A stretch of 64,000 nucleotides of DNA from positions 1-64,000 of the forward strand of contig NZ_CP071609.1 of assembly GCF_017357225.1 (NCBI RefSeq), in the 5' to 3' direction. Position numbers and translations under genes: made by a program. The notes beneath the pieces were generated by a model. It had not been told where the DNA came from. It worked only from the letters and a program-made list of their open reading frames with translations, and did not search any database. Numbering within the stretch: position 1 is the first letter of the stretch; each line of letters starts with the position of its first letter. The DNA is from Rhizobium binae (GTDB lineage: Bacteria; Pseudomonadota; Alphaproteobacteria; Rhizobiales; Rhizobiaceae). Of the stretch, positions 40,974 through 59,441 are shown piece by piece.

Positions 40974-40982
40974 CGCACGGAC

Positions 40983-42383: not shown

Positions 42384-42425
42384 TGCAACAACTGTTTTAC
42401 AAATGCCATTTATGATGCATTTGTT
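42384..42425. promoter_or_regulatory. Shared operator-like motif, site 1 (aminotransferase operon / rpiR gene)
   Basis: TGCAACAACTGTTTTA at 42384-42399 has an AACA..TGTT dyad. Thirteen bases on lies TGATGCATTTGTT at 42413-42425. The pair sits 76 bases before the aminotransferase start and about 100 bases before the divergent RpiR gene. Close copies occur at 48016, 52003 and 59181. The likely binder is the adjacent RpiR protein; this is inferred from position. Confidence 0.6.
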
Positions 42426-42523
42426 CTCATTCAACTTGGAGAGGAGACAACGCCTGCTCGCCATATGCTGTTTGACTTCCAAACCCGTTGGAGACATGGT
42501 CCGCTTGGTTCATCATAGTCATT

Positions 42524-43417
42524 GTGAGGCAAACGTTGCAAAAGGGTCCCCTCCACTCGCACATCATCGAACGGTTCGACGACATGTCCGAGCAGTTGCA
42601 ACAAGCAGCTCGCCATATCCTCGAGCATCCACAAGAGGTCGCGCTCGTCTCGATGCGCGAGCTCGCGCGCAATGCGGGTGTGCAGCCCTCGACCATGACG
42701 CGCCTTGCGAAATTTCTTGGCTTTCCGGGTTATGAAGACTTCCGTGTTCAACATGCTGACGTCATCCGCGTTAATGCAGACGGTTTTGCAGCGCGCGCGA
42801 TGCAAAGAGACGAAGCTGGAGCGAATGATGAGGGCCTCGCCCACCGGATGCTCCAGAGCATTTCAGCGCAGATTGCGCGACTATGTGAGCCGGAAACGCT
42901 TTCAAGACTGAACGAGATGGCTGAGCGTTTGGCCACAGCCCGAAGAGTTTATGTGCTTGGCCTGCGCTCCTGCCATTCGGTCGCCTGGCACTTTCATTAC
43001 GTGATGACGCTGTTAGGCGATAAGACCGTCCATTTGGACGGTCCTGCCGGCACGGGTGGCGACGCGCTTATTCGCGCCACCACTGATGATGTTCTCCTTG
43101 CCGTTTCAATAAATCCATACTCACGCTATACGCTTGAAGTCGCGGAAGCCGCCGTTGAGAAAGGTGTGAGTGTACTCGCGATAACGGACAGCGAGGTTTC
43201 GCCATTGGTTACGATTGCCGAGCATGCAGTCCTTTTTCCAACCGAGAGCCACACGTTCTTCCACACATTGACGCCGGCCTTGGCAATTTCGGAGGTGCTG
43301 TGCGGACTTCTGGCAAGCCACGATCGAAAGGGCGCGCTGAAGGAGCTCAAGCGGGTCGACAGCTATCTCTCTTCGATGAATACCTACTCCGCATCTATAC
43401 CGCGTCGAAAAATCTGA
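42524..43417 (+). CDS. MurR/RpiR-family transcriptional regulator
   Basis: About 297 residues. There is an N-terminal RpiR helix-turn-helix (ARHILEHPQEVALVSMRELA, then VQPSTMTRLAKFLGFPGYED) and a C-terminal SIS domain (RRVYVLGLRSCHSVAWHFHY, DDVLLAVSINPYSRYTLEVA). The GTG at 42524 matches the usual family N-terminus (RQTLQKGPLHSHI), although no strong ribosome site is seen. It diverges from the aminotransferase/M24 operon and converges on the polyamine-type transporter. Shared motifs upstream of four local transcription units make it the best candidate controller of the 37-60 kb region. Confidence 0.88.
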   Translation: MRQTLQKGPLHSHIIERFDDMSEQLQQAARHILEHPQEVALVSMRELARNAGVQPSTMTRLAKFLGFPGYEDFRVQHADVIRVNADGFAARAMQRDEAGANDEGLAHRMLQSISAQIARLCEPETLSRLNEMAERLATARRVYVLGLRSCHSVAWHFHYVMTLLGDKTVHLDGPAGTGGDALIRATTDDVLLAVSINPYSRYTLEVAEAAVEKGVSVLAITDSEVSPLVTIAEHAVLFPTESHTFFHTLTPALAISEVLCGLLASHDRKGALKELKRVDSYLSSMNTYSASIPRRKI

Positions 43418-43583
43418 AGGGGCTGATAGACCACCAACGTGCGGGCGTCACTTCATACCGCTGTCTGAATTTCGGAATTTCTCACTTCGATACCGCGCTG
43501 GACGCTAGGCCGACTTCGGCAAGATCGACAATGACGGTTTGCCTGATAACGTCATGATAATAAACCGGCGGGCGAGGGAGAAT

Positions 43584-43612
43584 GCCAGCCCTGGTTTTGA
43601 ACCAGGACTGGC
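43584..43612. terminator. Hairpin between convergent genes
   Basis: GCCAG-C-CCTGGTT at 43584-43596 pairs with AACCAGG-A-CTGGC at 43600-43612, giving a 12-bp stem with one mismatch and a 3-base loop. It lies between the RpiR gene (forward) and the fused permease gene (reverse), where a two-way terminator is expected. No T-run is present. Confidence 0.5.
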
Positions 43613-43620
43613 CAGCGAAC

Positions 43621-45393
43621 TTAAGCCGGGTTCGCAGTAGCGTTTTGCAGGGAGCTCCGTCCTCGCCACAGGGTGAAATATAGAGCCACCAGCCAAACAA
43701 TAGGCAGCAAGGTGAGCAAGGATCCCACTGCGGCAATCGTTGGATCGACCTGCTGCTTCAAATTTTCGAGCATCTTCAGGGGCAACGTCGGTATCGCATA
43801 GCCGCTGACAAACGATGTAATGATGACCTCATCGAAAGAAGCCAGAAAGGCAAACAGCGCCCCGCCGATTATACCAGAGCGGATCAGAGGAAATGTCACG
43901 CGCATAAAGGTCCGCGTCGGCCCGGCACGCATGCTCATTGCAGCCTGTTCAAGTCTTCTGTCAAACCCGGAAAGAGTCGCGAGGACAATCACTACGACAT
44001 AACCAATCGCACCGATGATATGGCCTAAGATGATGCCAGTGCTGGTTCCTACCAAACCGATTCTTGCCAAGCCGAGATAGACAGCGACGCCCACCACAAT
44101 GATCGGAAATGTGATTGGTGTGAGAATAACCATTGTCATGCTTGAACGGAAACTTGGGGAGCAGCGGCTCAGGCCGAAAGCTGCCGTTGTACCAGCTATC
44201 GCTGAAGCGACGCTGACTATCAGCCCGAATTTGAAGCTGTTCCACAGAGCACCAGTCCACGTCGGGTCTTGGAAGAACGAGTAATACCACCGCAGAGACC
44301 ATGTTTTCGGCGGGAACTCGAGAAACTCGCCCGGACTAAAGGAGATGACGATGACGATCAGGCCGGGCGCCAGCAGAAAGAACAATACAAGTGCAAGGAA
44401 CGATGCTCCGATAACCTTTGCCCACTTGGTATCCCTGCGACTTTTATAAAGCTTCGCTCCCCAGCTGCGAGCACGAATCGGTGTTGCAACCTCGCCAAGA
44501 TAGCGGCGTACCTTGGAAAACGATAGCCGGCGGTTCGACTTAATCTTCTGCTCCACGGACCCAGCTTGACCGTGTGCGCTGGCGAGATTTACACCCGCCG
44601 TAGAGAGAACCAGGAGCGCCATAGCAAGAAGTATGAAGGCAGCAGCGGCAGTTGGCGCGATGTCCAATGACGTCGTGAGCTGCGAATTGATAAGAGTAGA
44701 CAGCATGGTGTCGCCGAGGCCACCCAACGCCTGCGGCGTGATGTAAAATCCGAGGCAGACAACAAAAACGAGTATGCATCCGCTTCGAATACCCGGGACG
44801 CTAAGCGGAAGAAACACACGCAAGAACGCTGTGAAAGGCTTTGCGCCCATGCTGCGGGCCGCCTCCATAAGAGATTTGTCGATGTTCACCATCACGCTAA
44901 GCAATGGCAAGATCATCATGGGCAGCATGATATGCACCATCCCGACATAGACCGCGAAACGGTTGTAAATGAGGGTAAGTGGTCGGTCGATGAAACCAAG
45001 GTTGAGCAACAAGCTATTGATAAGCCCATTGTCTCCCAACACAACTGTCCACGCGTACGTCCGCACTAGAGCGCTCGTCAACCAAGGCAAGAACACCATG
45101 ACCACAAGAACAGGCCGCGCCCGGCCCGCATTGGCAATCAGATAAGCTATGGGATAACCGATCAGCAGGCAGATTGCAGTGGCGACCAGACTAATCTTGA
45201 GCGTCTGAATTAGAATTAAGACGTAAGACTTCTTCTCAAAGAACCCCACATAGTTAGCCAACGAGAACTCTGGCGCGTTGAGACTGGTCAGGAATAGCAG
45301 GATCATAGGTATGCCGAATACAGCGAACATGACCCCGAAGGCGGGCACCGTCAGCAGAATCGGGCTTGAGACCAATCGTCGTATCATTGTCAT
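43621..45393 (-). CDS. ABC transporter permease, PotB-PotC-type fusion
   Basis: A 590-residue protein holding two complete permease modules. The first (residues about 1-275) has the loop SLMEAARSMGAKPFTAFLRV and the second (about 325-580) has RLEQAAMSMRAGPTRTFMRV, each with six or so membrane spans. They are joined by a charged linker near 285-320. In most spermidine/putrescine-type systems these are two proteins, PotB and PotC. GAGGGAT lies six bases before the ATG. It is the last gene of the transporter operon after the binding protein and ATPase, and would form a whole channel by itself. Confidence 0.88.
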   Translation of the reverse strand: MTMIRRLVSSPILLTVPAFGVMFAVFGIPMILLFLTSLNAPEFSLANYVGFFEKKSYVLILIQTLKISLVATAICLLIGYPIAYLIANAGRARPVLVVMVFLPWLTSALVRTYAWTVVLGDNGLINSLLLNLGFIDRPLTLIYNRFAVYVGMVHIMLPMMILPLLSVMVNIDKSLMEAARSMGAKPFTAFLRVFLPLSVPGIRSGCILVFVVCLGFYITPQALGGLGDTMLSTLINSQLTTSLDIAPTAAAAFILLAMALLVLSTAGVNLASAHGQAGSVEQKIKSNRRLSFSKVRRYLGEVATPIRARSWGAKLYKSRRDTKWAKVIGASFLALVLFFLLAPGLIVIVISFSPGEFLEFPPKTWSLRWYYSFFQDPTWTGALWNSFKFGLIVSVASAIAGTTAAFGLSRCSPSFRSSMTMVILTPITFPIIVVGVAVYLGLARIGLVGTSTGIILGHIIGAIGYVVVIVLATLSGFDRRLEQAAMSMRAGPTRTFMRVTFPLIRSGIIGGALFAFLASFDEVIITSFVSGYAIPTLPLKMLENLKQQVDPTIAAVGSLLTLLPIVWLVALYFTLWRGRSSLQNATANPA

Positions 45394-45409
45394 TGGTGAT
45401 CCCTCGGGT

Positions 45410-46504
45410 TTACGCGGTTACAAACCGAACGTCTGATCGCAGCCAGTCGAGGCGAACCTCGTCGCCTGCCCCGAACACATCTTGCCCGGAGGCAACATGT
45501 TCGCGAGCGATCAGAACTGTATCGCCAACACGTACCCTGTATTTTCTTAAGGGACCGGCATAGATCATATCTTCTATGACTCCCGCGGCGGATTGCCTGC
45601 GCTCCGCATCACTGCGCCGCGGGCCATTCGGCGCAGTGACGCAGATGCGCTCGGGCCGGAGCATCGCGACCATTCCGGTCGAGGGCACGATATCGGATTG
45701 AACTTTGAAATCTGCGCCGTCGAAAATGTTGGCCTCGCCCAAAAAGTTTGCGACAAAACGCGTCTCCGGACGGTCGTATAGAGCTTCAGGTGTGTCAATC
45801 TGCTCGATCTGCCCAGATCTCATCACGACGATTCGATCAGACAGGGTCAGCGCTTCTTCTTGGTCATGGGTAACGCAGATGGTTGTCTTCCCAAATTCCC
45901 GGTGAAGATCCTTGATTTCGATCTGCATCTGCTCGCGAAGGTTTCGGTCAAGTGCGCCAAGCGGTTCGTCGAGCAGGAGGATAGGCGGATCCGCAATCAA
46001 GGCGCGCGCAAGGGCTACGCGCTGTTGCTGACCGCCACTCAATTGCGACGGCATCCGACCGCCGAATTCGCTTAGGCGCACGCGCTCAAGCATCCGGCTA
46101 ACGCGCTTCGCTCTCTCCGCACCATTGACGCCGCGCATTTCAAGAGGAAACTCAAGGTTTCGGGCGACGGTGAGGTGCGGGAAAAGTGCGTAACTCTGGA
46201 ATACGATTCCCTGATCGCGTCGATAGGAAGGAACTTCCGAAACTGATTTCCCGGCGATGAGGATATCTCCTTCGCTCGGAGTGGTGAACCCGGCAAGCAG
46301 CATCAACGCTGTCGTTTTTCCCGACCCACTCGGCCCTAGTATAGTTAAGAACTCACCGCGAGACACAGAAAGGGAGATATCTTTGACCGCAGCAATAGGC
46401 CCATACAACTTAGTGACATTGCGGAACTCAATCTGGGCGGGAACTGGGGCTTTCTCCAACACTTCGTCCTCGGTGGGAAGGTAACTTTTCATTTTCAAAG
46501 TCAT
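45410..46504 (-). CDS. ABC transporter ATP-binding protein, PotA-like
   Basis: A 364-residue ATPase with Walker A GPSGSGKTT, Q-loop FQSYALFPHLTV, signature LSGGQQQRVALARAL, Walker B LLLDEPLGALD, and a C-terminal TOBE-type domain after residue 280. It drives the fused permease encoded 16 bases downstream. GGAG lies eight bases before the ATG. Gene order and domain form match spermidine/putrescine-type importers, which also carry opines and other amines. Confidence 0.92.
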   Translation of the reverse strand: MTLKMKSYLPTEDEVLEKAPVPAQIEFRNVTKLYGPIAAVKDISLSVSRGEFLTILGPSGSGKTTALMLLAGFTTPSEGDILIAGKSVSEVPSYRRDQGIVFQSYALFPHLTVARNLEFPLEMRGVNGAERAKRVSRMLERVRLSEFGGRMPSQLSGGQQQRVALARALIADPPILLLDEPLGALDRNLREQMQIEIKDLHREFGKTTICVTHDQEEALTLSDRIVVMRSGQIEQIDTPEALYDRPETRFVANFLGEANIFDGADFKVQSDIVPSTGMVAMLRPERICVTAPNGPRRSDAERRQSAAGVIEDMIYAGPLRKYRVRVGDTVLIAREHVASGQDVFGAGDEVRLDWLRSDVRFVTA

Positions 46505-46632
46505 TTCGAATACTCCGTTAGGACCACGCGCCCAAGACGCGTAGTCCCAAAAGGCCGGTCAGCGGGATATCTGAGCCAGGAATGGGCCGGTTTGATCAGC
46601 GCCGCCGATACATTCGTTGGCACGAGTTGGAC

Positions 46633-47736
46633 TTACTGAAGTATCCACTCGTTCCAACGCTCGACAAGCCGATCCTTATTTGGTTTTCCATCTGGTCCGG
46701 CGTCTGCGTACCACTTGGCATCCAGAGCGAAGCTGGTGGCAGCATAATCTGGATGCGACGCAAGCTTTCGCGCAACATTGTCAGGTATGGTTTTGTATGC
46801 ATTCTTGTTGGTCGGAGCTTGCGCGATCAGTTCAGCGAAAGCCGCCTGCCTGTCTGCACGGCCAGTGATCTCGAGGAACCTTTGAGCGTTTTGCGCGTTC
46901 GGGCTGCCCTTCGGAATGCACCAATAGTCTGTCGTCAGCTTGGCCTGGTTCCGGTTGATCTCAATTGGGCCGCCCTCATCGATAAGGGACAGTGCCCGGC
47001 CGTCATAGGATTGCACAACGTCGGCAACATTGTCCCGCATAATCTGGAGGATCTCCGATCCGCCTGTCCACCACTTGCGAATGTGCGGCTTGATCTTGTC
47101 GAGACTCGCGAAAACTCGATCAATGTCCAGCGGATACAGTTTATCCATAGGAACGCCGTCGGCCAGCAGGGCCTCCTCCCAGGGGCCGGTTCCATATTCT
47201 CCGGTGAACAGAGACCGGACGCCAGGGAATTTTTCCACATCCCAGAACTCGGCCCATGACGTCGGACGCGATTTCCCTGCGGGGAACTTCTTCGTGTTCC
47301 ACACCATGTTGAACGAATAGACGTAGGAGGCGAAACCGCTCGGTTGTTTTGCGAAGTCAGCGATAGCTTCCAAGTCGTCTTTTTGCCAACCGGAATAATC
47401 GATCGTCTCGAGGTATCCTTTCGCGCTTAGAGGATGCACGTGCGTTTGGCCCATATTAACGATATCGGTTGAAACGTTCTTGGTATCCACCATCATCGCG
47501 ATCTGCGTCGATGTGAAATCCGCCAACACAGGTGTGACTTTGACGCCAGTCTCCTCCTCGAAAGGCTTTACATAAGCCTTCATCACCGCGTCGCCCCAAT
47601 TGCCGCCGCTCATGTTGACTTTCAATTCGCCAGTGGACGCCGCCCGCGCGCGACCGGTTGCGGACGACAACGCTCCCACCGCTATGACGGATGATGTCGC
47701 CTGCATGAAGCGCCTGCGATTTATTAGAAAGCTCAT
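46633..47736 (-). CDS. ABC transporter substrate-binding protein, PotD-like
   Basis: A 367-residue binding protein with a twin-arginine signal (NRRRFMQA) and probable cleavage after RARA. The mature part shows the spermidine/putrescine-type pattern VNMSGGNWGDAVMKAYVKPF, STDIVNMGQTHVHPLSAKGY, and DVVQSYDGRALSLID. The ATG at 47736 has GGGAGAAC upstream; earlier in-frame starts are inside a long leader and are rejected. An operator-like motif lies 280 bases upstream. The ligand is probably a small cationic or amide compound; it cannot be named from sequence. Confidence 0.88.
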   Translation of the reverse strand: MSFLINRRRFMQATSSVIAVGALSSATGRARAASTGELKVNMSGGNWGDAVMKAYVKPFEEETGVKVTPVLADFTSTQIAMMVDTKNVSTDIVNMGQTHVHPLSAKGYLETIDYSGWQKDDLEAIADFAKQPSGFASYVYSFNMVWNTKKFPAGKSRPTSWAEFWDVEKFPGVRSLFTGEYGTGPWEEALLADGVPMDKLYPLDIDRVFASLDKIKPHIRKWWTGGSEILQIMRDNVADVVQSYDGRALSLIDEGGPIEINRNQAKLTTDYWCIPKGSPNAQNAQRFLEITGRADRQAAFAELIAQAPTNKNAYKTIPDNVARKLASHPDYAATSFALDAKWYADAGPDGKPNKDRLVERWNEWILQ

Positions 47737-48238
47737 TTTCGTTCTCCCTCTGTTGCTCCCCTTGCTCATTGACGCAAGCGGATTCCAATCGCCGAAGGCA
47801 TCAGCGCCGCTACACAAGATCATGCCACTGACAACTCGCCCGCAGGAAACCTGCGCCTGCCTGGTGCCGTCGGCTGTGGTGCGTAGAAGCGGCCGGATCC
47901 TTCCCTTTCGACAACCGGCGTGGCGAGCACCCGGCGGCCTGATGCCAAACGTTGAGCGTCCGATTTCTTGTTGAAGCAGGCGCTTTATCAATGCCTAACG
48001 CAATACGGTGACAATTGCAACAAATGTTTTAAGTCTGATAATATGCATCAAGCGTATTATTGAATGGTCTCATCAGGACGTGTAATTGGCTTCAATTTGT
48101 CGCTGGTTTGACGGGCTGATTGGTGCTGGCTGCACGCAGAAATTGAGGGACGAAAATTGGCAAGAAGGCCTCTGATAGCTTTGTATGCGAGATAGACAGT
48201 CGCAGAGGCCGTCTGAATGCAGTTACTGCTTGACTGGA
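47737..48238. other. 500-base leader region of the PotD-type operon
   Basis: No intact gene is seen here. The region contains the operator-like motif at 48016-48031 and an AT-rich block around 48000-48070, so it is most likely the promoter and a long 5' leader of the transporter operon. The stretch 47740-47990 is open in the transporter frame but looks like leader, not protein. Confidence 0.45.
48016..48048. promoter_or_regulatory. Shared operator-like motif, site 2 (PotD operon)
   Basis: TGCAACAAATGTTTTA at 48016-48031 differs from site 1 at one base. ATGCAT follows at 48043-48048, in the position of the second element of site 1. It lies 280 bases before the binding-protein start. An RpiR-controlled promoter is inferred. 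Confidence 0.6.
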
Positions 48239-49322
48239 TCAATTCGCATGCGCGTATATTCGGTTCTTCGGCGGCAAACTATTTTGTCGGCTTTCTGCGG
48301 GCCCATCTGCTTCGTCCGAACCGGCGCGGTTTGCCAGAGCTGCATTTCGGCCACTTACTTGACGAGGGTTCTTCTCGCTCACAACGGCAGACAAGCCTGC
48401 ACCCGTCATCGCCATGCCGGCAGCATCAACGATGATATAGCCATCCTTCTGGCAACCGAGAGGCGCCCAAATCCGATCCTGAAGCAAGCGGGAGAACGGA
48501 AGACCAGTGACCCGCTCCATGACCCAAGTCATCACGTCAGTGTTGACGGTTTTGTAGGCAAACTCCGCTCCGCGTGTGCCCGCTTTCTCAACCGACTGAA
48601 TATAGTTGCATAAGGTTACCGGCCCAGCATAGCCAACTGGCCGCGGCCGCCACCCGCTTGCTCGCGCGTAAGCCCAAATGCTCGCGCTATTAGCCGAATA
48701 GTCTTCTGAGTACGCCAACCCTGTCTGCATATCCATCACTTGGCGGAGTGTTGCATCCTTCCAGGCGGTTGCCCTCAATTCAGGCAGAAAGTGGACGATT
48801 GGCTTTGATCATCTAGCACACCCTCATGTATGAACGACCCTGCCAGCGTCCCTGCGTATGACTTTGTAATTGAATGATATGCATGTGGCAGGTGAGCCTT
48901 GGGCGCCCCAAAGTAGCGCTCATACACTGTGCGACCACGATGGATTACCAAGATACCGTCGGTGTAGGTGTCGTTCAGCGCATCGATAAAATTTCGACGT
49001 TGACCCGTGCTGTCGACAAAGGAAAGGGCGTCGATCTCTGTGGATCTATCATTATTGGGAGATGCGAAGGACTGACAGGTCCGCGCCAAATATTGGCCGT
49101 GGCTGTCAACACGCGCATGTGGGACAAGGACCAGCGAATCTCCGGGAAGTCGAGAAATCTATGGCTCTCAAACGTAATAAGCTGGTCTGCATCGGGCGGC
49201 GCGCCACGCGTCCAGCCAAGCTCGCGAGGACCTGACGCGCGTCCATCCGCGTAGAACCTTCCGGCAAATTCAGTCGTGCCTGTGACAGAAATCTCTCCCT
49301 GCAGCCGCATAGCGGCCTGCAA
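48239..49322 (-). pseudogene. Broken serine hydrolase, 6-aminohexanoate-dimer hydrolase (NylB)-like
   Basis: Three consecutive reading frames together resemble a class-C beta-lactamase-fold amide hydrolase of the NylB type. Frame one (49322 to about 49045) carries DFPEIRWSLSHMRVL. Frame two carries DGILVIHRGRTVYERYFG and the S-x-x-K site HSITKSYAGT. Frame three, entered by a one-base shift near 48800, carries DMQTGLAYSEDY and FAYKTVNTDVMTWVMERVTG. Similarity stops near 48380, so about 120 C-terminal residues are missing as well. The gene is dead. It lies after the M24 gene and before the PotD-type operon, and was probably part of the same catabolic unit. Confidence 0.82.
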
Positions 49323-49397
49323 ATCCTCTTTGTCCGTTGAAAATGTTGTCGCGGTGTGAAGCGCGTACGTGCCTGAACGTCCAGCAATGGCAGAACG

Positions 49398-50567
49398 TTA
49401 AATCTGAACGATCTCTCGTGGGAAGCTGCCGAACACTTCCACTCCATTCTCGGTAACACGGAAGGTCTCGCTGATTACATAGCCGAGGTCTTCGTCAATC
49501 CAGTTCCCAAGCATCAGATGAAAAGTCATGTTTGGTATCAGGACGGTCGGGTCACCAAGCTTCAAGCTCGCGGTCGGCTCTGTCCAATTAATTCCCATGG
49601 CATACCCGCAACGAGACTCCTTCTCGAAGCCGTGTTTACGAAGAGTTGTGGTGAACGCAGCGGCCACATCTCCACAGGTCGCGCCTGGTTTCACAGCATC
49701 AAGTGCAGCCTCCAACCCAGCTGCCTCGCCGTCGTGCAACTGCCGGAGGCGATCAGAGGGCTTACCGACAGAGAAGGTTCGCATAAGCGCTGAAGTGTAA
49801 CCGTGACGCACCCCAGCAATCTCTAGGTTGACTTGAGAAGCATCCTGAAAGACGTCTTCGGTCCAAGAGAAATGACATGTCGACGTGCGAGGCGAGGCGC
49901 ATAAGTGGAACGGGGCCACATCGGTCCCAACCTTGCCATCTGCCCCACGAATTAGCGCCGCAATAATTTCTGCGGACGCATGAGCTTCGCTAACGCCCGG
50001 TCGAATGACCTCCTTGGCGCGGTGCATCGCGGAGTCTGCGATTTTTGCCGCTTCGCGCATCGCGATGATCTCAAGGTCGGATTTGACACCTCTGATCCAA
50101 TCGATCGCATTTCCGAAATCAACCAGTTTCGCCTCAGGCGCTCTCTTCCTGAACTTTTCGATTGTTGGGCCTTGCAGGAACCGTGCCTCGATTGCTACGC
50201 ACCCCCTGCCATGACCACTATCGAGCAAAAGGTCGATCGCAGCGTCCCAGCCGTCTTTTTCGGGGTTTGCAATAAGATCCTCGGCATAGCCGACCACACG
50301 ACTGCGATCGATAAACATTTGGTGGACGCCTGCCGGCGCGTCCATTCGACGCGTGATGAACGTTGGCTCTTCTTCTTGGAATGAGACTAGTAGAGCTTGC
50401 GGAACGTAGCCTGATTTTGAGGTATATCCTGTCAAATAGGTAATGTTCGCCGGTGATATGACCACAAGCAGATCAACCTCCCGTCGTCCCATTTCTGTCT
50501 TTACGGCGGACAGGCGCCGCAAATATTCGCTCCGCGGAAACGCCTGCGGCGCTTTGGGCATAGCCAT
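49398..50567 (-). CDS. M24-fold hydrolase, EutD/creatinase-like (copy 4)
   Basis: A 389-residue protein of the same group as the copies at 37145 and 39217: NITYLTGYTSKSGY, FITRRMDAP, TSTCHFSWTED, VNLEIAGVRHGYTSALMRT, GYAMGINWTEP, FHLMLGNW and ISETFRVTE. Typical M24 metal ligands are again missing, with Glu in the first position. It lies 145 bases after an M20 amidohydrolase and just before a broken NylB-like gene, which suggests consecutive C-N bond cleavages in one pathway. Confidence 0.82.
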   Translation of the reverse strand: MAMPKAPQAFPRSEYLRRLSAVKTEMGRREVDLLVVISPANITYLTGYTSKSGYVPQALLVSFQEEEPTFITRRMDAPAGVHQMFIDRSRVVGYAEDLIANPEKDGWDAAIDLLLDSGHGRGCVAIEARFLQGPTIEKFRKRAPEAKLVDFGNAIDWIRGVKSDLEIIAMREAAKIADSAMHRAKEVIRPGVSEAHASAEIIAALIRGADGKVGTDVAPFHLCASPRTSTCHFSWTEDVFQDASQVNLEIAGVRHGYTSALMRTFSVGKPSDRLRQLHDGEAAGLEAALDAVKPGATCGDVAAAFTTTLRKHGFEKESRCGYAMGINWTEPTASLKLGDPTVLIPNMTFHLMLGNWIDEDLGYVISETFRVTENGVEVFGSFPREIVQI

Positions 50568-50712
50568 AACATCAACTCCTCTGCCGTCATAAAAACTACT
50601 ACGAGCTCGCCTCGCTCGCTGAGGTTGGGAGGGCCCGGGTGATCTGAGTCATCGATTCGCTCCGGTACCAAGAGTCACCGCGCCGAACACAGGAAGCGGC
50701 GCCGACGCAAAT

Positions 50713-51894
50713 TCATTCGCGTATGAGGTTTAAGCAGTATTGGACCGCCAACTCCGTAGCGGGGATCACGATCTTGTCGGACGCACCGAAAGTCGGCGTA
50801 TGCACCCCTGTATCGTTGCCTGGCTCCTGAGTGCCAATCCAAAAATAGATGGACGGCAGTAGGTCAGAATAATACCCGAAGTCATCGCTTCCCGAGCTTG
50901 CCGGTCGTTGGACGAACTTATCCTCGCCTGCCACTTTGATGACCGTTTCACGGAAGCGGTCGACCATGTCGGAGTCGTTGATGACCGGCGGCTCGCCTGC
51001 AAGCGATGAGAACCGAGCACGACCGCGATGCATAGACGCGGCCCCATCAGCAATCTCACCGACTCTCCGAACTAACAAAGTCCTGCGCTCAGAATTGCTT
51101 GTGCGGATTGTCCCCGTCAACGTGACCGATGGGCAGATAATGTTGGTCGCCTCGCCCCCATGGATGGTGCCGATGGTGATGATCGCGCCATCGTCTACAG
51201 GCATTTCCCGCGAAACCACCTTTTGGACCTCATTGATAAAGGCCGCTGCAATGGAAATCGCGTCAACGCCCGCATTCGGCTTTGCCCCGTGGGCCATAAT
51301 TCCGATGAACTCCACCTCAAATTGGTCGGACGATTTAGTCACAGCGCCGGCACGCGCGCCATAGGACCCTGCTGGAATGTCAGTATGTACATGAAGCCCA
51401 ACAGCCAAGTCGAAGCCATCAAGCAGTTTCGCCTCAGCGACGCTTCGCCCGCCAAGCGGTTCTGCCTCTTCCGCTGGCTGAAAAATGACACGCACTTTGC
51501 CCGAGAAGTTCTGTCGCATTCGGTGGAAAGCAAGGGCTGTACCTAAAGCGATGGATCCATGCACGTCATGGCCGCAAGCGTGCATCACACCTGGCACCTC
51601 GGATTTATACGGTAGGTCGTCCCGTTCTTCGTGGATTGGGAGCGCATCAATGTCACCCCGGAGCACAACCGAACGACCGGGGCCGGAAGCTGCGCCCTCG
51701 ATATCAATATACACACCGGTATTATGAAAGGTGTTCGCGCCAGTCAGGCCGAACGCCTCCAGTGCTTCAATAATCCTTTTTTGGGTCTTCCACTCATTGT
51801 TCGACAGTTCTGGCTCGCGATGCATCGCGTGTCGTAGCTCCAGAACCGCATCGCACTCGGTTTCTGAGAGTAAGTTGTTGGTCAAAACGTTCAT
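50713..51894 (-). CDS. M20 family amidohydrolase (N-acyl amino acid / hippurate hydrolase-like)
   Basis: A 393-residue M20D amidohydrolase. Ligand motifs are LRGDIDALPIHEE, MHACGHDVHGSIALG, FQPAEEAEPLGG, VGLHVHTDIPAGSYG and a C-terminal VHTPTFGASDKI. All the usual metal residues are present, in contrast to the relative at 1676-2845. It removes an acyl group from an amide nitrogen in the cytoplasm. It is first in the unit M20 - M24 - broken NylB, with an operator-like motif 109 bases upstream and an IS66 element a further 94 bases up. Confidence 0.88.
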   Translation of the reverse strand: MNVLTNNLLSETECDAVLELRHAMHREPELSNNEWKTQKRIIEALEAFGLTGANTFHNTGVYIDIEGAASGPGRSVVLRGDIDALPIHEERDDLPYKSEVPGVMHACGHDVHGSIALGTALAFHRMRQNFSGKVRVIFQPAEEAEPLGGRSVAEAKLLDGFDLAVGLHVHTDIPAGSYGARAGAVTKSSDQFEVEFIGIMAHGAKPNAGVDAISIAAAFINEVQKVVSREMPVDDGAIITIGTIHGGEATNIICPSVTLTGTIRTSNSERRTLLVRRVGEIADGAASMHRGRARFSSLAGEPPVINDSDMVDRFRETVIKVAGEDKFVQRPASSGSDDFGYYSDLLPSIYFWIGTQEPGNDTGVHTPTFGASDKIVIPATELAVQYCLNLIRE

Positions 51895-51982
51895 TTTAGT
51901 TCCTCGGTCTTCCGGGCGTGACTGACCCGCGAACCTATCAGCCTCGTGGCAGAACCCTCACCTATGCGGCTCCTGATTCATT

Positions 51983-52018
51983 TGATGCAATAGTTTGTGC
52001 TTTGCGTCAAGTGTTTTA
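51983..52018. promoter_or_regulatory. Shared operator-like motif, site 3 (M20-M24 unit)
   Basis: TGCGTCAAGTGTTTTA at 52003-52018 matches site 1 at 12 of 16 positions. TGATGCAATAGTT at 51983-51995 matches the second element at most positions. Here the order of the two elements is reversed relative to sites 1 and 4. It lies 109 bases before the M20 start. Confidence 0.5.
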
Positions 52019-52111: not shown

Positions 52112-52194
52112 GTAAGCGCGAATTTCTATGCGCCTTTTGAAGCGGAGTGCTCTGATGCATGAAGTGTCCACCAAAAACAGGTGGACACCAAATC

Positions 52195-52948: not shown

Positions 52949-52999
52949 GGATGGCGAATTGAGATTGACGCGCAGGGGCGGTTCAGATTCAAGAATCTG

Positions 53000-54586
53000 A
53001 TGACGCGCACCGGCGAACCGAGCATTGCAGAACTGATGGCGCAATTAGCAGCCAACGCTGCCGAAATCGCCGCGCTCAAAGCCGAGAAGGAAGCGCTCTC
53101 GCAGCGGGTCGTCAAGCTGGAAGAAGAACTGGCACTGGCAAAGCTCCATCGCTTTGCACCCCGCAGTGAGAAGCACATTGATCGTCTCTTCAACGAGGCC
53201 GAAGAGGCTGCGGTCGAAGGTGGTAGCGAGGAAGACGATGACGTCGAGCTTCCGGATACTGGCTTGCCTGCGGCCGAGGGCGTTACGGGCAAAAAGCGGG
53301 GACGCAGGCCTCTGCCGGCAGACCTGCCGCGCGAGCGTGTCGAATACGACCTTGCTGATGATCAGAAGGCTTGCCCGTGCTGCAAAAGCCAAATGCATCG
53401 AATGGGCGAAGCCGTTAGCGAGCAGCTCCATATCGAGATCAAGGCAAAGGTCCTGCAGAACGTACGGTTCAAATACGCCTGCCGGCACTGTGACCGTACA
53501 GGGATTAACACGCCTGTCGTAATCGCGCCCATGCCCACGCAACCCCTGCCGGGCAGCATCGCCACCGCGTCGACGCTCGCCTTTGCTCTCGTCCACAAAT
53601 ACGTAGATGGCACGCCGCTCTACCGCGTGGCTCAGACATTCGAGCGTGCTGGCGTTCCGATCAGCCGTGGCGCTCTTGCGCATTGGGTCATCGGCTCGAG
53701 CGAGAAGCATCTATACCGCATCTATGATGCTTTGAAGCTGCGGCTGAAATCGCAGTCTCTCATCCATGGCGATGAGACGACGGTTCAGGTGCTGAAGGAA
53801 AAGGACAAGGAAGCCACCAGCACGTCGTACATGTGGGCGTACCGCAGCAGCGAGAACAGTGACGAGCCGATCGTGCTTCTCGACTACCAGCCCGGCCGCG
53901 GTCAGATTTATCCGCAGACCTTCCTTGGTGACTACCGTGGCATACTCGTCACTGATGGCTACACTGCCTGGCGCACATTGAATGGCGCAACCCATGTCGG
54001 ATGCATGGCTCACTCCAGGCGGCGCTTCGTTGATGCCCTCAAGGCGAGAAAGAATGGAGGCGGACCGCCGGAACAGGCACTCCGGTTCTTCGAACAGCTC
54101 TACCGGATCGAAAGGCAGGCGAGAGACAAGACCCCAGATCCAGGGGAGACAAAGGCCGATTGCATTCGCCGTTTCCGCCAGCAGCACAGCCTGCCTGTCC
54201 TGAACGCCCTAAAGACGTGGCTCGATAACATCGCGCCGAAGGTCGTACCGGATACCAAGCTCGGCGATGCTGTGTCCTACACCCTGAACCAATGGGATTA
54301 TCTGACGCGCTACACCAGCGATGGCAGGATGCCGATCGATAACAACATTCTGGAACGCGAGATCAGAGTTTTTGCCACCGGAAGAAAATCGTGGCTGTTC
54401 AGCGATACCGCTGACGGAGCCAGGGCCAGCGCTGTGATTTACAGTCTGATGCTGACCTGCCGCGCCTGTGGCGTCGATCCGCTCTCTTGGCTGCGCCACG
54501 TCCTCACTGAGCTGCCTCAGCTTGACGAAGCCGACGACATCGGCGACCTGCTGCCCTTCAATTACTCCAAGACCACTGCGGCCTGA
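53000..54586 (+). CDS. tnpC: IS66 transposase TnpC
   Basis: A 528-residue DDE transposase. It has an N-terminal leucine-rich coiled coil (about residues 10-50), a zinc-binding pair ACPCC / YACRHC near 125-165, and the catalytic core with Asp in IHGDETTVQVL, Asp in LVTDGYTAW and Glu in NNILEREIRVFATG. It is full length with no frameshift. It cuts and joins the ends of this IS66 copy. Confidence 0.94.
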   Translation: MTRTGEPSIAELMAQLAANAAEIAALKAEKEALSQRVVKLEEELALAKLHRFAPRSEKHIDRLFNEAEEAAVEGGSEEDDDVELPDTGLPAAEGVTGKKRGRRPLPADLPRERVEYDLADDQKACPCCKSQMHRMGEAVSEQLHIEIKAKVLQNVRFKYACRHCDRTGINTPVVIAPMPTQPLPGSIATASTLAFALVHKYVDGTPLYRVAQTFERAGVPISRGALAHWVIGSSEKHLYRIYDALKLRLKSQSLIHGDETTVQVLKEKDKEATSTSYMWAYRSSENSDEPIVLLDYQPGRGQIYPQTFLGDYRGILVTDGYTAWRTLNGATHVGCMAHSRRRFVDALKARKNGGGPPEQALRFFEQLYRIERQARDKTPDPGETKADCIRRFRQQHSLPVLNALKTWLDNIAPKVVPDTKLGDAVSYTLNQWDYLTRYTSDGRMPIDNNILEREIRVFATGRKSWLFSDTADGARASAVIYSLMLTCRACGVDPLSWLRHVLTELPQLDEADDIGDLLPFNYSKTTAA

Positions 54587-54641
54587 TAAAGCTGGGTACT
54601 GCTACCCAGCTAAGCGCAAGTGTCCGTCAACTGCCGTCAAT

Positions 54642-54671
54642 GCGCATTGAAAATCGCGCTTACGCTTGGAC
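54642..54671. repeat. Right inverted repeat and target duplication of IS66 element 1
   Basis: The right terminus ends ...TCGCGCTTAC at 54663, the reverse complement of the left GTAAGCGCGA. GCTTGGAC follows at 54664-54671, identical to the copy at 52104-52111. Confidence 0.92.
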
Positions 54672-55034
54672 GTTGGGTAGGTGCGCAAGTGCCTATGGTT
54701 TTAGCTGGCAGAATAGATCGTGCGATCTAAAACCAGCGTCGCTGAAATTTACGCCTCCTGATCTTCACTGAATCGAATGAAGATCCCGCCTGAACATATC
54801 TCGCGCACGAGGTCCCGGCGCCTGCCACTTCACCAAACAGCCGAGCAGGAGGTCAGGCGCCATCAACCTGAAGAAGGACCACTCCTAGAAACATCTGCAA
54901 CATATAATTAAATTGGTCGGAGATGACGCGGGCGCATCACTCAGGGCGTTTGCTCAGCCTCATCAATCCTCGCTATCAAGACAGTTTCCTCGCCATCCTC
55001 CGGCGTCAGACGCGGCTGGCTTGATCACACTGAA
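54672..55034. other. 363-base spacer beyond IS66 element 1
   Basis: This stretch lies between the IS66 copy and the stop of the gamma-glutamyltransferase-like gene. Only short frames without recognisable similarity are present. Before the insertion it was continuous with the promoter region of the M20 gene. Confidence 0.4.
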
Positions 55035-56570
55035 TTAAAGCGCGCTGCCTGAGCTTGAGGGATCGGCTCCACTTTTGTACCGGTTGCTGTCGAGGCGCTC
55101 CACGATATTTACCATTCCCATGTGAATGTTCGGCTCGTAGTCAGTTGGTGCGACCGAGAAGCCTCGTGTCTCTAGGTGCAGACGCGCATCCGGCCAAAAG
55201 TCCACGTGCATTCGCAGCTTGCCGTCCTTCGGAAACACTCGGGGCTTCGCAAGCAAATCCGCCATGTCTTCCTTGAACCCAAGCCCAAGCTTCAGGAACA
55301 GCAGATAAGTCAGCGAACCAAGTATGCGTTCGCTTCCTGCCGATCCAATGGCCAACGTGGACCTACCGGACATCTCCAAAATCAATGGTGACATTTCCGT
55401 GACATCGTGTGTTTGCCCGGCAAAAAGGGAATTAGATTTCATCGCATAACTGTAGCCAAGCCCCGCACCCCACCACGACAGCTTCGAACCAAACCATGGG
55501 CCGATAGAAGTTGTAAACGAAAGGAAATCCTCGCCTGAAGCGATCGAAAAATGGTTTGTGTTAGCGTCATCAGTCCAACTGTCTGGTCCAGGAAAGTACG
55601 TCGATTGCAGTTCATTCCATAGCGCGTCGACGGGCGCATTCAGCAACCGGATAACGCGATCTGCAATTGCGGTGGCTTCCAACGAAATATCGACCTCAAC
55701 GGAAGGATGGGCGACTTTGGGCTCAAGAGTGCCAACTGCGAATGGTATACGGTCGAGCAGAAGAATAGTGGATAGGACATAGGCCTCAATGGCTCGCGAA
55801 AATTCGCTGAGCACGCCGCGTCGGCGGAGTTCGACAGTCACGGCCGCGCCGAGCAAGGTCCACGTTCCCCACGTTTCGAGAGCTCCAGTCGTGAGGAGGC
55901 GCTGGGACTGTCCGTCGAGGTCGAGAATGCGCGGAGCGGGCTGCCGCACGGAGTTGTTGAGAGTTTCTTCGGGACGCCAAGGTCCAGGTTCCCTTGCCCG
56001 CAGACTGCGCCAGAAGTCATCCTCAATTTCAGATTCCGCTAAGACTTGGAGGAGGTCTGCGAGTTCCGGATTACGGATATGTTCGCGAGGTGCGTCGTTC
56101 CCATCCAAATAAATCGCCTTAAGGGACTCACTCAATCCGGCGCCCTCGCTTTCGAGAGCAACTTTCAAACCCTCGCTGGGAGCAAAGCCTTCTTGAGCCA
56201 GCACGATGGCGGGCGCCAGCAGTGCGCGGCTTGGAAGGCGCAAACGGCGGTTTTGCTTGAAGAAGAACCACGCAGCTATGTTCCCCGGAACAGGGACTGG
56301 CAGCGCTGACTTCGATACGCGCCGAAGCGCAGTTGGAGCGCTTAAACAGCCGATTTCGCCCGCGACGGAAAAGATGCCCTGCATGCGACCGAAAGGGCTA
56401 CAGTTGGCAGGATCGGCGACCCAAGCGCAGGCAAGGGCGGCGAGATACATGTCGAAGACGCCCCCACCTTGTTGCCTTACGACGTTTGCTGCGGCCGTTG
56501 CCGATGACACCGGGGTAGCGATTCCGAAGTCTAAACTGCTGTGGACATGCAAAGGCGCTTCCGAGATCAT
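55035..56570 (-). CDS. Gamma-glutamyltransferase-like protein, cut off from its ribosome site by IS66
   Basis: A 511-residue Ntn-hydrolase of the gamma-glutamyltransferase family. IATPVSSATAAANVVRQQGG starts the fold, NTNHFSIASGEDFLSFTTS carries the likely nucleophile Thr338, and GSAGSERILGSLTYLL is near the end. The segment usually reading PLSSMSP reads DVTEMSP, so the oxyanion serines are changed and the substrate may differ. No signal peptide is seen, unlike periplasmic Ggt. The native ATG is at 56570, inside the target duplication of IS66 element 2; the matching AGGAGA is now 2.5 kb away at 59094-59099. An in-frame start in the IS (56696) could give a 42-residue extension. Expression is doubtful. 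Confidence 0.8.
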   Translation of the reverse strand: MISEAPLHVHSSLDFGIATPVSSATAAANVVRQQGGGVFDMYLAALACAWVADPANCSPFGRMQGIFSVAGEIGCLSAPTALRRVSKSALPVPVPGNIAAWFFFKQNRRLRLPSRALLAPAIVLAQEGFAPSEGLKVALESEGAGLSESLKAIYLDGNDAPREHIRNPELADLLQVLAESEIEDDFWRSLRAREPGPWRPEETLNNSVRQPAPRILDLDGQSQRLLTTGALETWGTWTLLGAAVTVELRRRGVLSEFSRAIEAYVLSTILLLDRIPFAVGTLEPKVAHPSVEVDISLEATAIADRVIRLLNAPVDALWNELQSTYFPGPDSWTDDANTNHFSIASGEDFLSFTTSIGPWFGSKLSWWGAGLGYSYAMKSNSLFAGQTHDVTEMSPLILEMSGRSTLAIGSAGSERILGSLTYLLFLKLGLGFKEDMADLLAKPRVFPKDGKLRMHVDFWPDARLHLETRGFSVAPTDYEPNIHMGMVNIVERLDSNRYKSGADPSSSGSAL

Positions 56571-56572
56571 GC
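56565..56572. repeat. Target-site duplication of IS66 element 2 (left copy), spans a start codon
   Basis: GATCATGC lies directly before the left end of element 2 and again at 59083-59090 after its right end. On the reverse strand this reads GCATGATC and contains the ATG of the gamma-glutamyltransferase-like gene. Confidence 0.93.
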
Positions 56573-56660
56573 GTAAGCGATGCAGAGACCCCATCTGGCG
56601 AGGTTGATGTTGAGGGTCTATTCGTGCCTGAGCGATGAATGAGCTTTGGTATGAACTTCT

Positions 56661-57047
56661 ATGTCTGCACCTATGTCCGAAGCTAGAAGCTTCCATATGA
56701 TCGAAGCCGTTGCCAGTCGTCTTGAAGGCGCGCCTCGTGAGGTTCGGCGTTGGTCAGACGAATTCAAGGCGCAAGCGGTTGTCGAAGCGATGCAGCCGGG
56801 CACCAACATATCGGCGGTGGCGCGTCGCATCGGAATTGATCCGTCGCAGTTATTCACGTGGCTTCGCCATGCGCGCCGGAAAGCTGCGGTATTACCCACG
56901 ACGGCATCGGGGAATGGTTTGCCTTCACCGGCAAGCAGCAGAGGTCCGACGATCGAGATCATCATCGGCGACACGGTGATCCGGGCGGGTGCCGACATCG
57001 ATGAGGCTCATCTTGCTCGTGTCCTGCGTGCGGTGCGGTCAGCATGA
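56661..57047 (+). CDS. tnpA: IS66 accessory protein TnpA
   Basis: A 128-residue protein with a helix-turn-helix of TnpA type (RRWSDEFKAQAVVEAMQPGT, ISAVARRIGIDPSQLFTWLR). Its last codons overlap the start of tnpB (ATGA). It is unlike the TnpA of element 1 apart from the shared fold. Confidence 0.9.
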   Translation: MSAPMSEARSFHMIEAVASRLEGAPREVRRWSDEFKAQAVVEAMQPGTNISAVARRIGIDPSQLFTWLRHARRKAAVLPTTASGNGLPSPASSRGPTIEIIIGDTVIRAGADIDEAHLARVLRAVRSA

Positions 57048-57388
57048 TCCCGTCGGGTGTGAAGGTGTTTCTGGCAAGCCACCCGGTCGACTTCCGTAAA
57101 GGTCCCGATAGCCTTTTGTCGCTGGTGCGCGATGCTGGCAATGACCCGTTCAGTGGCTCGCTTTATGTTTTCCGCGCCAAGAGAGCGGACAGGGTCAAGA
57201 TCGCCTGGTGGGACGGCTCCGGCGTCTGCCTCTATTCGAAGCGGCTGGAGAAAAATCAGTTCGTTTGGCCGAAGATCGGACATGCCCGCGTGCAGCTCAA
57301 TCACGCGCAGCTCCTTGCCCTGGTTGACGGGATGGACTGGAAACGTGTGCGCACGGTTGCGGTGAAACGGCCGGAATTTGTTGGGTAA
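57044..57388 (+). CDS. tnpB: IS66 accessory protein TnpB
   Basis: A 114-residue IS66 Orf2-like protein with VFLASHPVDFRKGPDSLLSL, LYVFRAKRADRVKIAWWDGS, and LYSKRLEKNQFVWPK. It overlaps tnpA by four bases, suggesting translational coupling. Length and motifs are normal for the family. Confidence 0.93.
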   Translation: MIPSGVKVFLASHPVDFRKGPDSLLSLVRDAGNDPFSGSLYVFRAKRADRVKIAWWDGSGVCLYSKRLEKNQFVWPKIGHARVQLNHAQLLALVDGMDWKRVRTVAVKRPEFVG

Positions 57389-57462
57389 AAGCCCTGCGGC
57401 AGAGTGAATCAGGCGGCCGAAACTGCGGGAAATTGTCGGCAAAATATGCTCTATTTGCAGGC

Positions 57463-59061
57463 ATGATAGCAGCCGATTTGCAGCTCCCCGATGACGTTGA
57501 TGCGCTGAAAGCCATGATCCTGGCGATGGCTGAAAAGGCTGCGCGCGCTGAGGTCCTGGAAACTGAAGTCGCTGATCTGAAAGCCCGCAATACAGATGCC
57601 GACGAGCAGATCGCCAAGCTGAAGCAGGTCCTCAAAGCCTTCAACCGATACCGGTATGGAAGACGCTCGGAAAAGCAGAGCAACAAGGCCGACACGGATC
57701 TCGATGAACAGGGTGCGTTCGTCTTCGAGGAAATCGAGACTGGGATTGCTGTAATCGAAGCGCTGGTCGCAAAAGGCCGAACCCCAAGCACCACGAAACG
57801 TGCATCACGTCCGCGCAAGGGCTTCCCGCCGCATCTGGAGCGTATCCATGTGGTAATCGAGCCGGACGAGCTGCCTGAGCATGCCGGCAAACAGAAGATC
57901 CTGATTGGTGAAGATACCTCCGAGCGATTGGATGTTATCCCGCCAAAGTTCCGGGTGATCGTCACCCACCGCCCGAAGTACGCCTTCAAAAACGAGGACG
58001 GCGTCATCCAGGCCTTGGCCCCGGCGCACATCGTCGAAAGCGGCATGCCAACGGAAGCGCTGCTCGCCTTTGTCGCGGTCTCCAAATACGGCGATGGTTT
58101 GCCGCTCTATCGGCAGGAGGCGATCTTCCTGCGCGACCATGTCGAAGTCGACCGTGGTGCCATGGCGCGATGGATGGGTAAGGTCGGGTTCGAACTTGAG
58201 ATCCTCGCCGACTACACCTTTGATCGGATCAAAGAAGCCGAGCGAATATTCGCCGACGAGACGACATTGCCGACGCTTGTGCCTGGGTCGGGGTCGGCCA
58301 AGACAGCGTATCTATGGGCGTATGCCAGAGATGATCGACCGTTCGGCGGCAGTGGCCCGCCGATGGTTGCCTATCGATTTGAAGACAATAGGTCTGGAGA
58401 TTGTGTCGCCCGGCATCTCGATGGCTATCGTGGCATCCTGCAGATCGACGGATACGCGGCCTATAACCGCGTTGCCCGTCCCGATCGCGGAAATGACGGC
58501 GCTCTGCTGGCGGGATGTTGGGCTCATAGTCGGCGTCGGTTTTACGAGCTACATGCCAACGACGGTTCCAAGGTGGCAACAGCGACGATCGAAAAGATGG
58601 GCGCGCTCTGGGCGATCGAGGAAAAGGTGCGTGGACAAAGCCCGGATCGGCGCGTTGCCGCCCGCCAGGAGAGCTCCGCTGAAATCGTTGCCGATCTCTA
58701 CAAGCTCTGGCGGGACACGCTGCCGCGCATCTCTGGCAAGTCCAAGCTCGCTGAGGCCATCCGCTACGCTCTCAATCGGCGCGAAACCTTCGAACAGTTC
58801 CTCCGCGATGGACGCATCGAAATCGACTCCAACATCGTTGAACGGGCGATCAGGCCACAGGCAATTGTTCGAAAAAATAGTCTATTCGCCGGCAATGCTG
58901 GCGGAGGTAGGACCTGGGCGACGATTGCAACCCTCATTCAATGCGCCAAGATGAATGACGTCGACCCACTGGCCTGGTTGACACAGACGCTCGAGCGCAT
59001 CGCAGCCGGATGGCCGGCCAGCGATATTGAGGCTCTAATGCCCTGGAAATTCCAAAAGTAA
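57463..59061 (+). CDS. tnpC: IS66 transposase TnpC
   Basis: A 532-residue DDE transposase of IS66 type. Catalytic residues lie in IFADETTLPTLVPG, LQIDGYAAYNRV and SNIVERAIRPQAIVRK. The paired CxxC zinc motif seen in element 1 is absent, the region instead reading HLERIHVVIEPDELPEHAG. The ATG at 57463 begins at IAADLQLPDDVDALK, the usual start of the family; an in-frame start ten codons earlier is possible. Confidence 0.93.
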   Translation: MIAADLQLPDDVDALKAMILAMAEKAARAEVLETEVADLKARNTDADEQIAKLKQVLKAFNRYRYGRRSEKQSNKADTDLDEQGAFVFEEIETGIAVIEALVAKGRTPSTTKRASRPRKGFPPHLERIHVVIEPDELPEHAGKQKILIGEDTSERLDVIPPKFRVIVTHRPKYAFKNEDGVIQALAPAHIVESGMPTEALLAFVAVSKYGDGLPLYRQEAIFLRDHVEVDRGAMARWMGKVGFELEILADYTFDRIKEAERIFADETTLPTLVPGSGSAKTAYLWAYARDDRPFGGSGPPMVAYRFEDNRSGDCVARHLDGYRGILQIDGYAAYNRVARPDRGNDGALLAGCWAHSRRRFYELHANDGSKVATATIEKMGALWAIEEKVRGQSPDRRVAARQESSAEIVADLYKLWRDTLPRISGKSKLAEAIRYALNRRETFEQFLRDGRIEIDSNIVERAIRPQAIVRKNSLFAGNAGGGRTWATIATLIQCAKMNDVDPLAWLTQTLERIAAGWPASDIEALMPWKFQK

Positions 59062-59090
59062 CGGCCTCTGTTCACCGCTTACGATCATGC
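59056..59090. repeat. Right inverted repeat and target duplication of IS66 element 2
   Basis: The element ends ...TTCACCGCTTAC at 59082. GATCATGC follows at 59083-59090, matching the left duplication at 56565-56572. Confidence 0.92.
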
Positions 59091-59441
59091 GGTTCTCCTG
59101 AGTTGAAGGTCACCTCCGTGCATTGCCCGCCCGAAGATGGTTCCATCCAGCGGTGGCTTCTATTGGGGTTTTAAAAAATTCGCAACAATTGTTTGACGAA
59201 AATTCTCGTGACGCATTCGTTTCGCAAATTGAGCACTCTTCACGCTTCCGCGGATCTTGGAAAAGCTGCTTCGCCAGGGCTCCAACGCCGACCGGAGGCT
59301 AGATCTTTATGAACGGAGAGGATGTGACTACGCTCCGGTCTCAAGCGGAAGTGCGTGCCTATCGGAAACGACTACAGATGATTGAACAATCACGTTACAT
59401 TGAATACCAGACGTGTCTGATGAAAGTCTTCCAGCTCGAAC
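59091..59441. promoter_or_regulatory. Orphaned promoter and ribosome site of the gamma-glutamyltransferase-like gene
   Basis: On the reverse strand, AGGAGA (59094-59099) lies six bases before the GCATGATC copy at 59083-59090, so removing the IS and one duplicate restores a perfect initiation site. Operator-like motif site 4 lies about 85-125 bases further upstream. The rest of the interval, up to the Lrp gene, holds no gene-like frame. Confidence 0.75.
59181..59221. promoter_or_regulatory. Shared operator-like motif, site 4 (gamma-glutamyltransferase gene)
   Basis: CGCAACAATTGTTTGA at 59181-59196 has a perfect AACAATTGTT palindrome. TGACGCATTCGTT at 59209-59221 is the second element, 12 bases on, as at site 1 (13 bases). 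It lies about 100 bases before the native start codon of the gamma-glutamyltransferase-like gene, now displaced by IS66 element 2. Confidence 0.6.

Follow-up and report, generated by a model that had tools for sequence, protein, structure and literature searches.

The first 64,000 nucleotides of contig NZ_CP071609.1 of Rhizobium binae (NCBI RefSeq assembly GCF_017357225.1, positions 1 to 64,000 of the forward strand; this whole stretch is called the window here) hold a regulator gene of the MurR/RpiR family and a set of import and catabolic genes that are predicted to form a regulon with it. The plasmid-borne regulator gene, rpiR (42530..43417, + strand), encodes a protein with an HTH_6 and a SIS domain and is the proposed regulator of the set. 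The units in question all lie on the minus strand. A class-III aminotransferase gene (PRK07483 equivalog, 40983..42308) is the first gene of an operon (37145-42308) of aminotransferase, CMD, M24, racemase-like and M24 genes. An ATP-binding cassette importer of the PotD-A-BC type (43621..47733) consists of a binding protein (46633-47733), an ATPase and a fused permease. An M20 amidohydrolase gene stands together with a third, DoeA-like M24 hydrolase gene (49398..51894). The two remaining units are a gamma-glutamyltransferase-like gene that is cut off from its promoter region (55035..56570) and a CocE/NonD (S15 type) hydrolase gene (34842..36662).

The first-pass annotation had reported an operator-like motif of 16 bp starting at 42384, 48016, 52003 and 59181 (sites 1 to 4 below), and all four 16-mers are found at these coordinates on the + strand. 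Each is one half of a paired operator, in which a 16-bp palindrome, about TGMAACANNTGTTKCA, is present in two copies per promoter. A second element had been described next to the motif; it is present at all four sites, but it repeats the palindrome in register, at 28 or 29 bp from start to start, and the idea of a distinct motif was dropped after the partner-offset and pair-matrix scans. At site 2, which belongs to the importer unit (48016..48031), the ATGCAT recorded in place of the second element is part of TGCATCAAGCGTATTA at 48044, that is, of the partner operator (48044..48059, 28 bp away). At site 3, which belongs to the M20 unit (52003..52018) and is unchanged in R. indigoferae and S. 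medicae SU277, which are close relatives here, the block that had been named as partner lies 19 bp away. This spacing was ruled out, since a place 29 bp away on the gene side (51974..51989) scores higher and a similar pair occurs in R. indigoferae. Site 1, before the aminotransferase operon (42384..42399), has its partner at 29 bp (42413..42428), and its TTGCA end, read on the minus strand, is the likely -35 hexamer. Site 4 (59181..59196) and its partner at 28 bp (59209..59224) mark the original gamma-glutamyltransferase promoter, from which the gene is now separated. The four sites are real, and two further pairs on the + strand had been overlooked. One is at the CocE/NonD hydrolase gene, with an operator over the likely -10 region (36686..36701) and a partner 29 bp away (36715..36730). 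The other is at the start of rpiR, with an operator over the ribosome-binding site and start (42525..42540) and a weaker partner (42497..42512).

With up to three mismatches, TGCAACAANTGTTTTA matches the window six times, where shuffled sequence gives a mean of 0.88. A degenerate pattern made from the four reported sites, YGCRWCAANTGTTTKA, occurs at exactly four places in the 7.06-Mb genome, all of them the reported ones, and nowhere in the reversed control; because the pattern was built from those same four sites, this count speaks for rarity and says nothing on function. A pair matrix was trained on other genomes, with the window, R. indigoferae, pHRC017, S. medicae SU277 and two stretches of the same genome left out. 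Six pairs in the window exceed the best of 200 shuffled windows (21.6): 48016 (35.4), 51974 (31.7), 36686 (31.5), 42384 (30.3), 59181 (27.5) and, by the narrowest difference, 42497 (22.3). The next place, 54896, scores 13.9, which is inside the shuffle range, and the highest score in two further stretches of this replicon (59.6 kb) is 9.3. After removal of sites 60-90 bases or nearer to the ends of their stretches and of repeats with identical flanks, the best partner offset was +28 in 41 and +29 in 12 of 61 distinct strong sites. When the sites were clustered by their flanks and scored with a matrix blind to the partner elements, pairing at 28 or 29 bp was found in 35 of 43.

An orthologue search was made over the other 199 genomes, and 33 locus groups were scanned, 24 of them with an RpiR orthologue. 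Orthologues 71-88% identical occur in 15 of these genomes, all of the same genus, and also on eight plasmids from the genera Rhizobium, Sinorhizobium and Mesorhizobium. Of the 16 genomes that have an orthologue (at least 71% identical), 15 contain the exact core TGCAACANNTGTTTTA, against 4 of the 184 that lack one (Fisher p 4e-18, a value that is indicative, the genomes being related). The exception among the holders is G119, where the site reads TGCAACGATTGTTTTA. The four genomes that have the core without an orthologue are G005, G074, G114 and G175. In G114, a genome of 82% completeness, the site stands before a binding-protein gene whose type also has the site in G004; G005 and G074 have one site in common, with the gene on the unexpected side, and the core sites of G005, G074 and G175 may be due to chance. 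In the spacers between rpiR and the aminotransferase gene of the orthologues, TGCAACAANTGTTTTA and TGATGCATTTGTTTT are conspicuous, and alignments of orthologues show the operator blocks conserved inside otherwise diverged upstream regions. It is worth noting that palindrome-like sequences also occur within the rpiR coding sequence, CGCAACGTATGTTGCA in the G112 group (position 22328) and CGCAACGTATGTTACA in the G072 group (position 29843).

More distant homologues (L021-L028, 39-53% identical) have unrelated surroundings, and seven of the eight carry a TGAAACATATGTTGCA-like palindrome in their own rpiR promoter, L026 being the sole exception. A matrix from these seven promoter sites, which were picked by eye with the window motif already known, puts 48016, 42384 and 59181, in this order, ahead of all other places in the window, with 52003 at about eleventh. 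The same promoters bear on the possibility that the motif belongs to another regulator of the island, for which the Lrp/AsnC-type proteins encoded at 34212 and 59442 would be candidates. Control of amino-acid catabolism is a frequent role of Lrp-type proteins, and 16 of the 24 locus groups with an RpiR orthologue contain an Lrp2 match. However, the other eight groups have the site and no Lrp2 match in stretches of limited length (G091 has a 48%-identical Lrp), and at the distant rpiR promoters of G045, G106, G001, G020 and G116 the palindrome stands in 19.9-kb stretches without an Lrp match, which makes an Lrp-type owner improbable.

The assignment to RpiR also fits where the sites are found in relatives. 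A site lies before the aminotransferase gene in all 24 locus groups with an RpiR orthologue (the matrix was trained on such sites), upstream of the orthologous PotD-type binding-protein gene (at least 81% identical) in 13 of 13 groups, and before the CocE orthologue in 10 of 10, although it is weak in the window, pHRC017 and CB3171, and a 38%-identical fragment in G100 was left out. Three more diverged importer copies (64%, 55% and 39%) had no site in the locus-group scan. Relatives also have sites before genes read from their sequence as amino-acid binding proteins, dipeptide importers, a glutamine-amidotransferase-like hydrolase and a CoA transferase; the dipeptide importer at 9790 in the window has no site above threshold upstream, and some relatives have one. 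At the rpiR start, 21 of the 24 groups were examined (G013, G066 and G004 were omitted as near-identical to G104). The operator at 42525..42540 has a counterpart of 14-17 bits in all 21 loci, and the weaker partner at 42497 one of more than 3 bits in 16, but the conservation of the former is partly accounted for by start-site and coding constraints. Paralogous importer/M24 sets are found on the same replicon, as L079 (contig C6, 235000-254752, also with a racemase-like gene) and L077 (64001-83900), with no operator. No pair above 9.3 was found in the sets of L077-L079, and those of L077 and L079 are probably under other control.

Site 4 is a special case. An IS66 element (56573..59082) is inserted at the gamma-glutamyltransferase start codon and is flanked by an 8-bp target duplication, GATCATGC, at 56565 and 59083. 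The duplication covers the likely start codon, the coding part (55035-56570) stays open, and the ribosome-binding site, promoter and operator pair have been displaced by 2.5 kb. The gamma-glutamyltransferase gene had been listed as a regulated unit at this site. The pair there scores above the shuffles, but the gene no longer adjoins it, and the intervening IS66 rules out site 4 as a working promoter of this gene. The site is a relic, or drives only a stub. An alignment of the regions upstream of gamma-glutamyltransferase genes was uninformative, having run into the IS66 element.

In the direction of the regulated gene, the primary operator has TTGCA as its last bases, and 35 of 61 sites (24 of 37 clusters) show a TA exactly 18 bases past the operator end; the median over other offsets is about 3%. 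This would be expected with TTGCAN as the -35 hexamer and, 17 bp away, TANNNN as the -10 hexamer; transcription starts are predicted throughout. The aminotransferase promoters mostly have AAATCA where TANNNN is expected. A register that is uniform in most sites could also come about without a functional regulon, if duplication or insertion sequence (IS) activity had spread copies of a single promoter segment, and the replicons are indeed rich in IS elements. Against this, the flanks differ (43 clusters among 61 sites) where operators and spacing are kept, and orthologous upstream regions have diverged outside the blocks; spread of a segment is therefore a very improbable account.

The position of the operators also gives an indication of the sign of control. 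Within the window, the CocE and M20 promoters have the partner operator on the side of the gene, covering what is likely the -10 region; the aminotransferase, importer and former gamma-glutamyltransferase promoters have it one step upstream; and the rpiR pair covers the start codon and the last part of the likely promoter. As read here, an operator would overlap the -35 hexamer in all five target promoters of the window, and because this overlap is common to them repression is favoured. The other possibility is that RpiR is an activator or dual regulator, which would bind at or above the -35 of weak promoters, recruit RNA polymerase with its effector and repress its own gene. Activators typically keep a fixed register across unrelated genes, and HexR and GlvR are dual or activating members of the RpiR family. 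In addition, the partner is upstream, on the side away from the gene, in 53 of 61 strong sites, and many promoters have poor -10 elements (TAGGCA, TACATG, TAGATG), both of which would suit an activator. PMC12713135 gives S. pneumoniae NanR as an RpiR activator. Against the proposed reading as a whole, the CocE sites of G104, G013, G066 and G004 lie about 20 bp before the start, outside the -35 register. The partner over the likely -10 region in the window's CocE and M20 promoters, and the rpiR pair at promoter end and start, speak against activation, which we regard as a possible but unlikely mode; repression is the likelier of the two.

The RpiR protein scores 42.9 bits for HTH_6 (cut-off 28.3) and 54.7 bits for SIS (cut-off 25), which places it in the MurR/RpiR family. 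Its best matches among solved chains are 4ivn, 3sho, 8k3b and 8ju9, all of them weak. The ATG start codon of most relatives reads ACG in the window (42533-42535), and the gene must therefore use the upstream GTG or the next TTG. In the loop of the SIS domain, all 14 aligned homologues have PY in place of SG, so that the SxSG phosphate loop is missing; at the same position 4ivn has SSSG, 8k3b and 8ju9 have SQSG, and 3sho is without it. Because of this loop RpiR is not filed here as a phosphosugar sensor: a phosphosugar ligand appears doubtful, and membership in the family is unaffected. The presumed recognition helix, VQPSTMTRLAKFLGF, is closer to that of palindrome-bearing distant homologues (e.g. 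VQPATMTRLAKHLGL in G106) than to that of a second plasmid RpiR (VPPATLTRLSKRLGF in G100). G183 has the palindrome, yet its helix is nearer to the second RpiR, so the helix comparison is weak evidence. This second RpiR, 36-39% identical, is found 4-33 kb from the orthologue on the same contig in six genomes (G100 contig C2, G060 C3, G018 C3, G104 C3, G072 C5 and G108 C157), and several other genomes have a copy like it on a different contig. It was tried as the regulator and rejected, as a site is present at its own gene in none of the six fetched stretches that hold it. It is absent from the present genome, where the next-best match after rpiR has an E value of 3.8e-27.

A number of further observations weigh against a regulon of this kind. 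With two mismatches, TGCAACANNTGTTTYA matches 33 places in the genome, and the reversed control also gives 33. Since the two counts are equal, sites 3 and 4 singly cannot be told from chance; genome-wide, 42384 and 48016 stand out singly, while 52003 and 59181 are at chance level. Equal numbers are what would be seen if AT-rich promoter words had been put together by eye. For the pairs this explanation is extremely unlikely, as their scores above all 200 shuffles contradict it, and with up to two mismatches the pair pattern occurs at six places in 7.06 Mb, three of them in the window (48016, 42384 and 51974), where reversed controls gave two. A place on the chromosome, C1:2934839, has no more mismatches than these three, and 59181 and 36686 fall short of the pattern. 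The matrix also finds a pair of 25.7 in the 19.9-kb stretch of G145, an order-level relative (G145 group positions 19842 and 19870), away from the rpiR homologue, whose own promoter has no pair; this may be a real site or a false positive. A spacing of 28-29 bp is not a whole number of helical turns. The training sites were chosen by their likeness to the window motif, so that the matrices are independent of the window sequence and not of the idea, and many loci are closely related, so that counts are not independent events. Among 19 locus groups holding an M20 orthologue (at least 70% identical) only four have a site before it, because elsewhere M20 sits mostly inside a run of genes. The gamma-glutamyltransferase groups are four in number: one has a site directly (the window, at the former promoter) and one, G091, through a run of importer genes that has a site at its start and the gamma-glutamyltransferase gene at its end, and in pHRC017 and IE4771 the locus-group scan found no site. 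A similarity search of the plasmid collection with 401 bp around site 4 gave no match, so that this site has no comparative support, and the evidence for it is its pair score.

The same operator nevertheless stands before several units and the regulator gene, as six pairs in the window and at further units in relatives. The RpiR regulon proposed earlier gains support from the promoters of distant homologues, the co-distribution of core and orthologue, the conserved blocks and the sites before further importer and catabolic genes. We consider it highly likely that this is a regulon with the present RpiR as its regulator, with binding predicted from the operators. If so, we lean towards repression, and, slightly less firmly again, towards the full statement of a paired-operator RpiR regulon under repression. 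As for the claim of one catabolic system, the shared operator at several units holds, and the common function comes from annotation only. Most likely, the two operators of each promoter would be bound by two dimers of one RpiR tetramer, and RpiR without inducer would block RNA polymerase. An intermediate of the imported compound would bind the SIS domain and release RpiR, and the pair at the rpiR start would give autoregulation. We infer the tetramer from the pairing of the operators, and binding, transcription starts, sign of control and inducer are likewise predictions.

Several neighbouring genes deserve mention. In the orthologous island of Rhizobium sp. CB3171 (L082, 9276-11251), genes annotated for ectoine utilisation, eutC and eutB, lie between the racemase-like and M20 genes. 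Lysine 2,3-aminomutase genes are found near the island in L037 (33486-37335), and genes annotated as biotin-carboxylase family, which we read as ATP-grasp, on three plasmids (L037 33486-37335, L081 35124-38518 and L082 27809-31308); these genes are possibly a biosynthesis neighbour of the catabolic ones. In the window a second class-III aminotransferase gene (33330-34021), beside the Lrp gene at 34212, is apparently frameshifted, and it is annotated at full length in R. indigoferae (L035).

No account of this gene set or regulon was met in the literature searched, most subscription papers and RegPrecise-type databases having been out of reach; PMC12337268 is unrelated, its 'M24' being a co-expression module. 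Through the analysis some dozen importer, hydrolase and transaminase genes, scattered on rhizobial plasmids of variable content, become one predicted unit for which a regulator is named and the operator rule is precise, and their function thereby becomes testable by a single deletion and a few reporters. The possible use of paired operators by RpiR proteins gains a comparative case, and the findings suggest that some members of the family sense something other than a phosphosugar. As a tentative and rather doubtful extension, this could be a mobile catabolic module of symbiosis or accessory plasmids, carried by only some strains, in which an RpiR that has departed from phosphosugars would sense an ectoine-like or gamma-glutamyl amino compound, perhaps plant- or bacteroid-derived. 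The fixed -35-linked pair would capture new importer and hydrolase genes for a single regulon, making up a private nutrient system of the rhizopine type.

Known systems resemble the set in different respects. The enzymes look like those of ectoine utilisation (eut/doe): all three M24 proteins have DoeA/EutD as best match and the M20 protein matches DoeB2 among others, but the DoeA/EutD scores (550.8, 406.2 and 259.7 against a cut-off of 613) and the DoeB2 score (216.3 against 550) are below equivalog level. The linked regulator here is an RpiR, and ectoine genes are known under other control. IolR of S. meliloti is described as an RpiR-like repressor of a rhizobial catabolic system (PMC8877191). 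Unlike the regulator here, it controls inositol catabolism. The IolR motif is also different from the present operator. HexR regulons are listed in PMC5343134, and RccR is a tetramer (PMC10810197). Closer in operator design is NanR of S. pneumoniae, which has near-palindromic sites with a TGAAA half-site, a consensus beginning TCTGAAACTACTTTCAAA and a dimer-tetramer equilibrium; unlike what is proposed here, and unlike other reported RpiR proteins, it is an activator, with a degenerate half-palindrome about 23 bp away as its second site (PMC12713135). E. coli MurR, the regulator of the N-acetylmuramate regulon, is also of the RpiR family and has two adjacent promoter sites, which according to the same 2025 preprint it is proposed to bridge as a tetramer over -35 and -10 (PMC12713135). 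Its sites are reported to be 17 bp apart and to cover 47 bp in all, where the 16-bp sites here have 12-13 bp between them and span 44-45 bp; MurR responds to a phosphorylated sugar (PMC12713135), whereas here the SIS loop is without SxSG and the genes look like amino-compound catabolism. With these likenesses and differences, the set is very probably a genuine RpiR-type regulon with paired operators, in a design like that of known bacterial switches.

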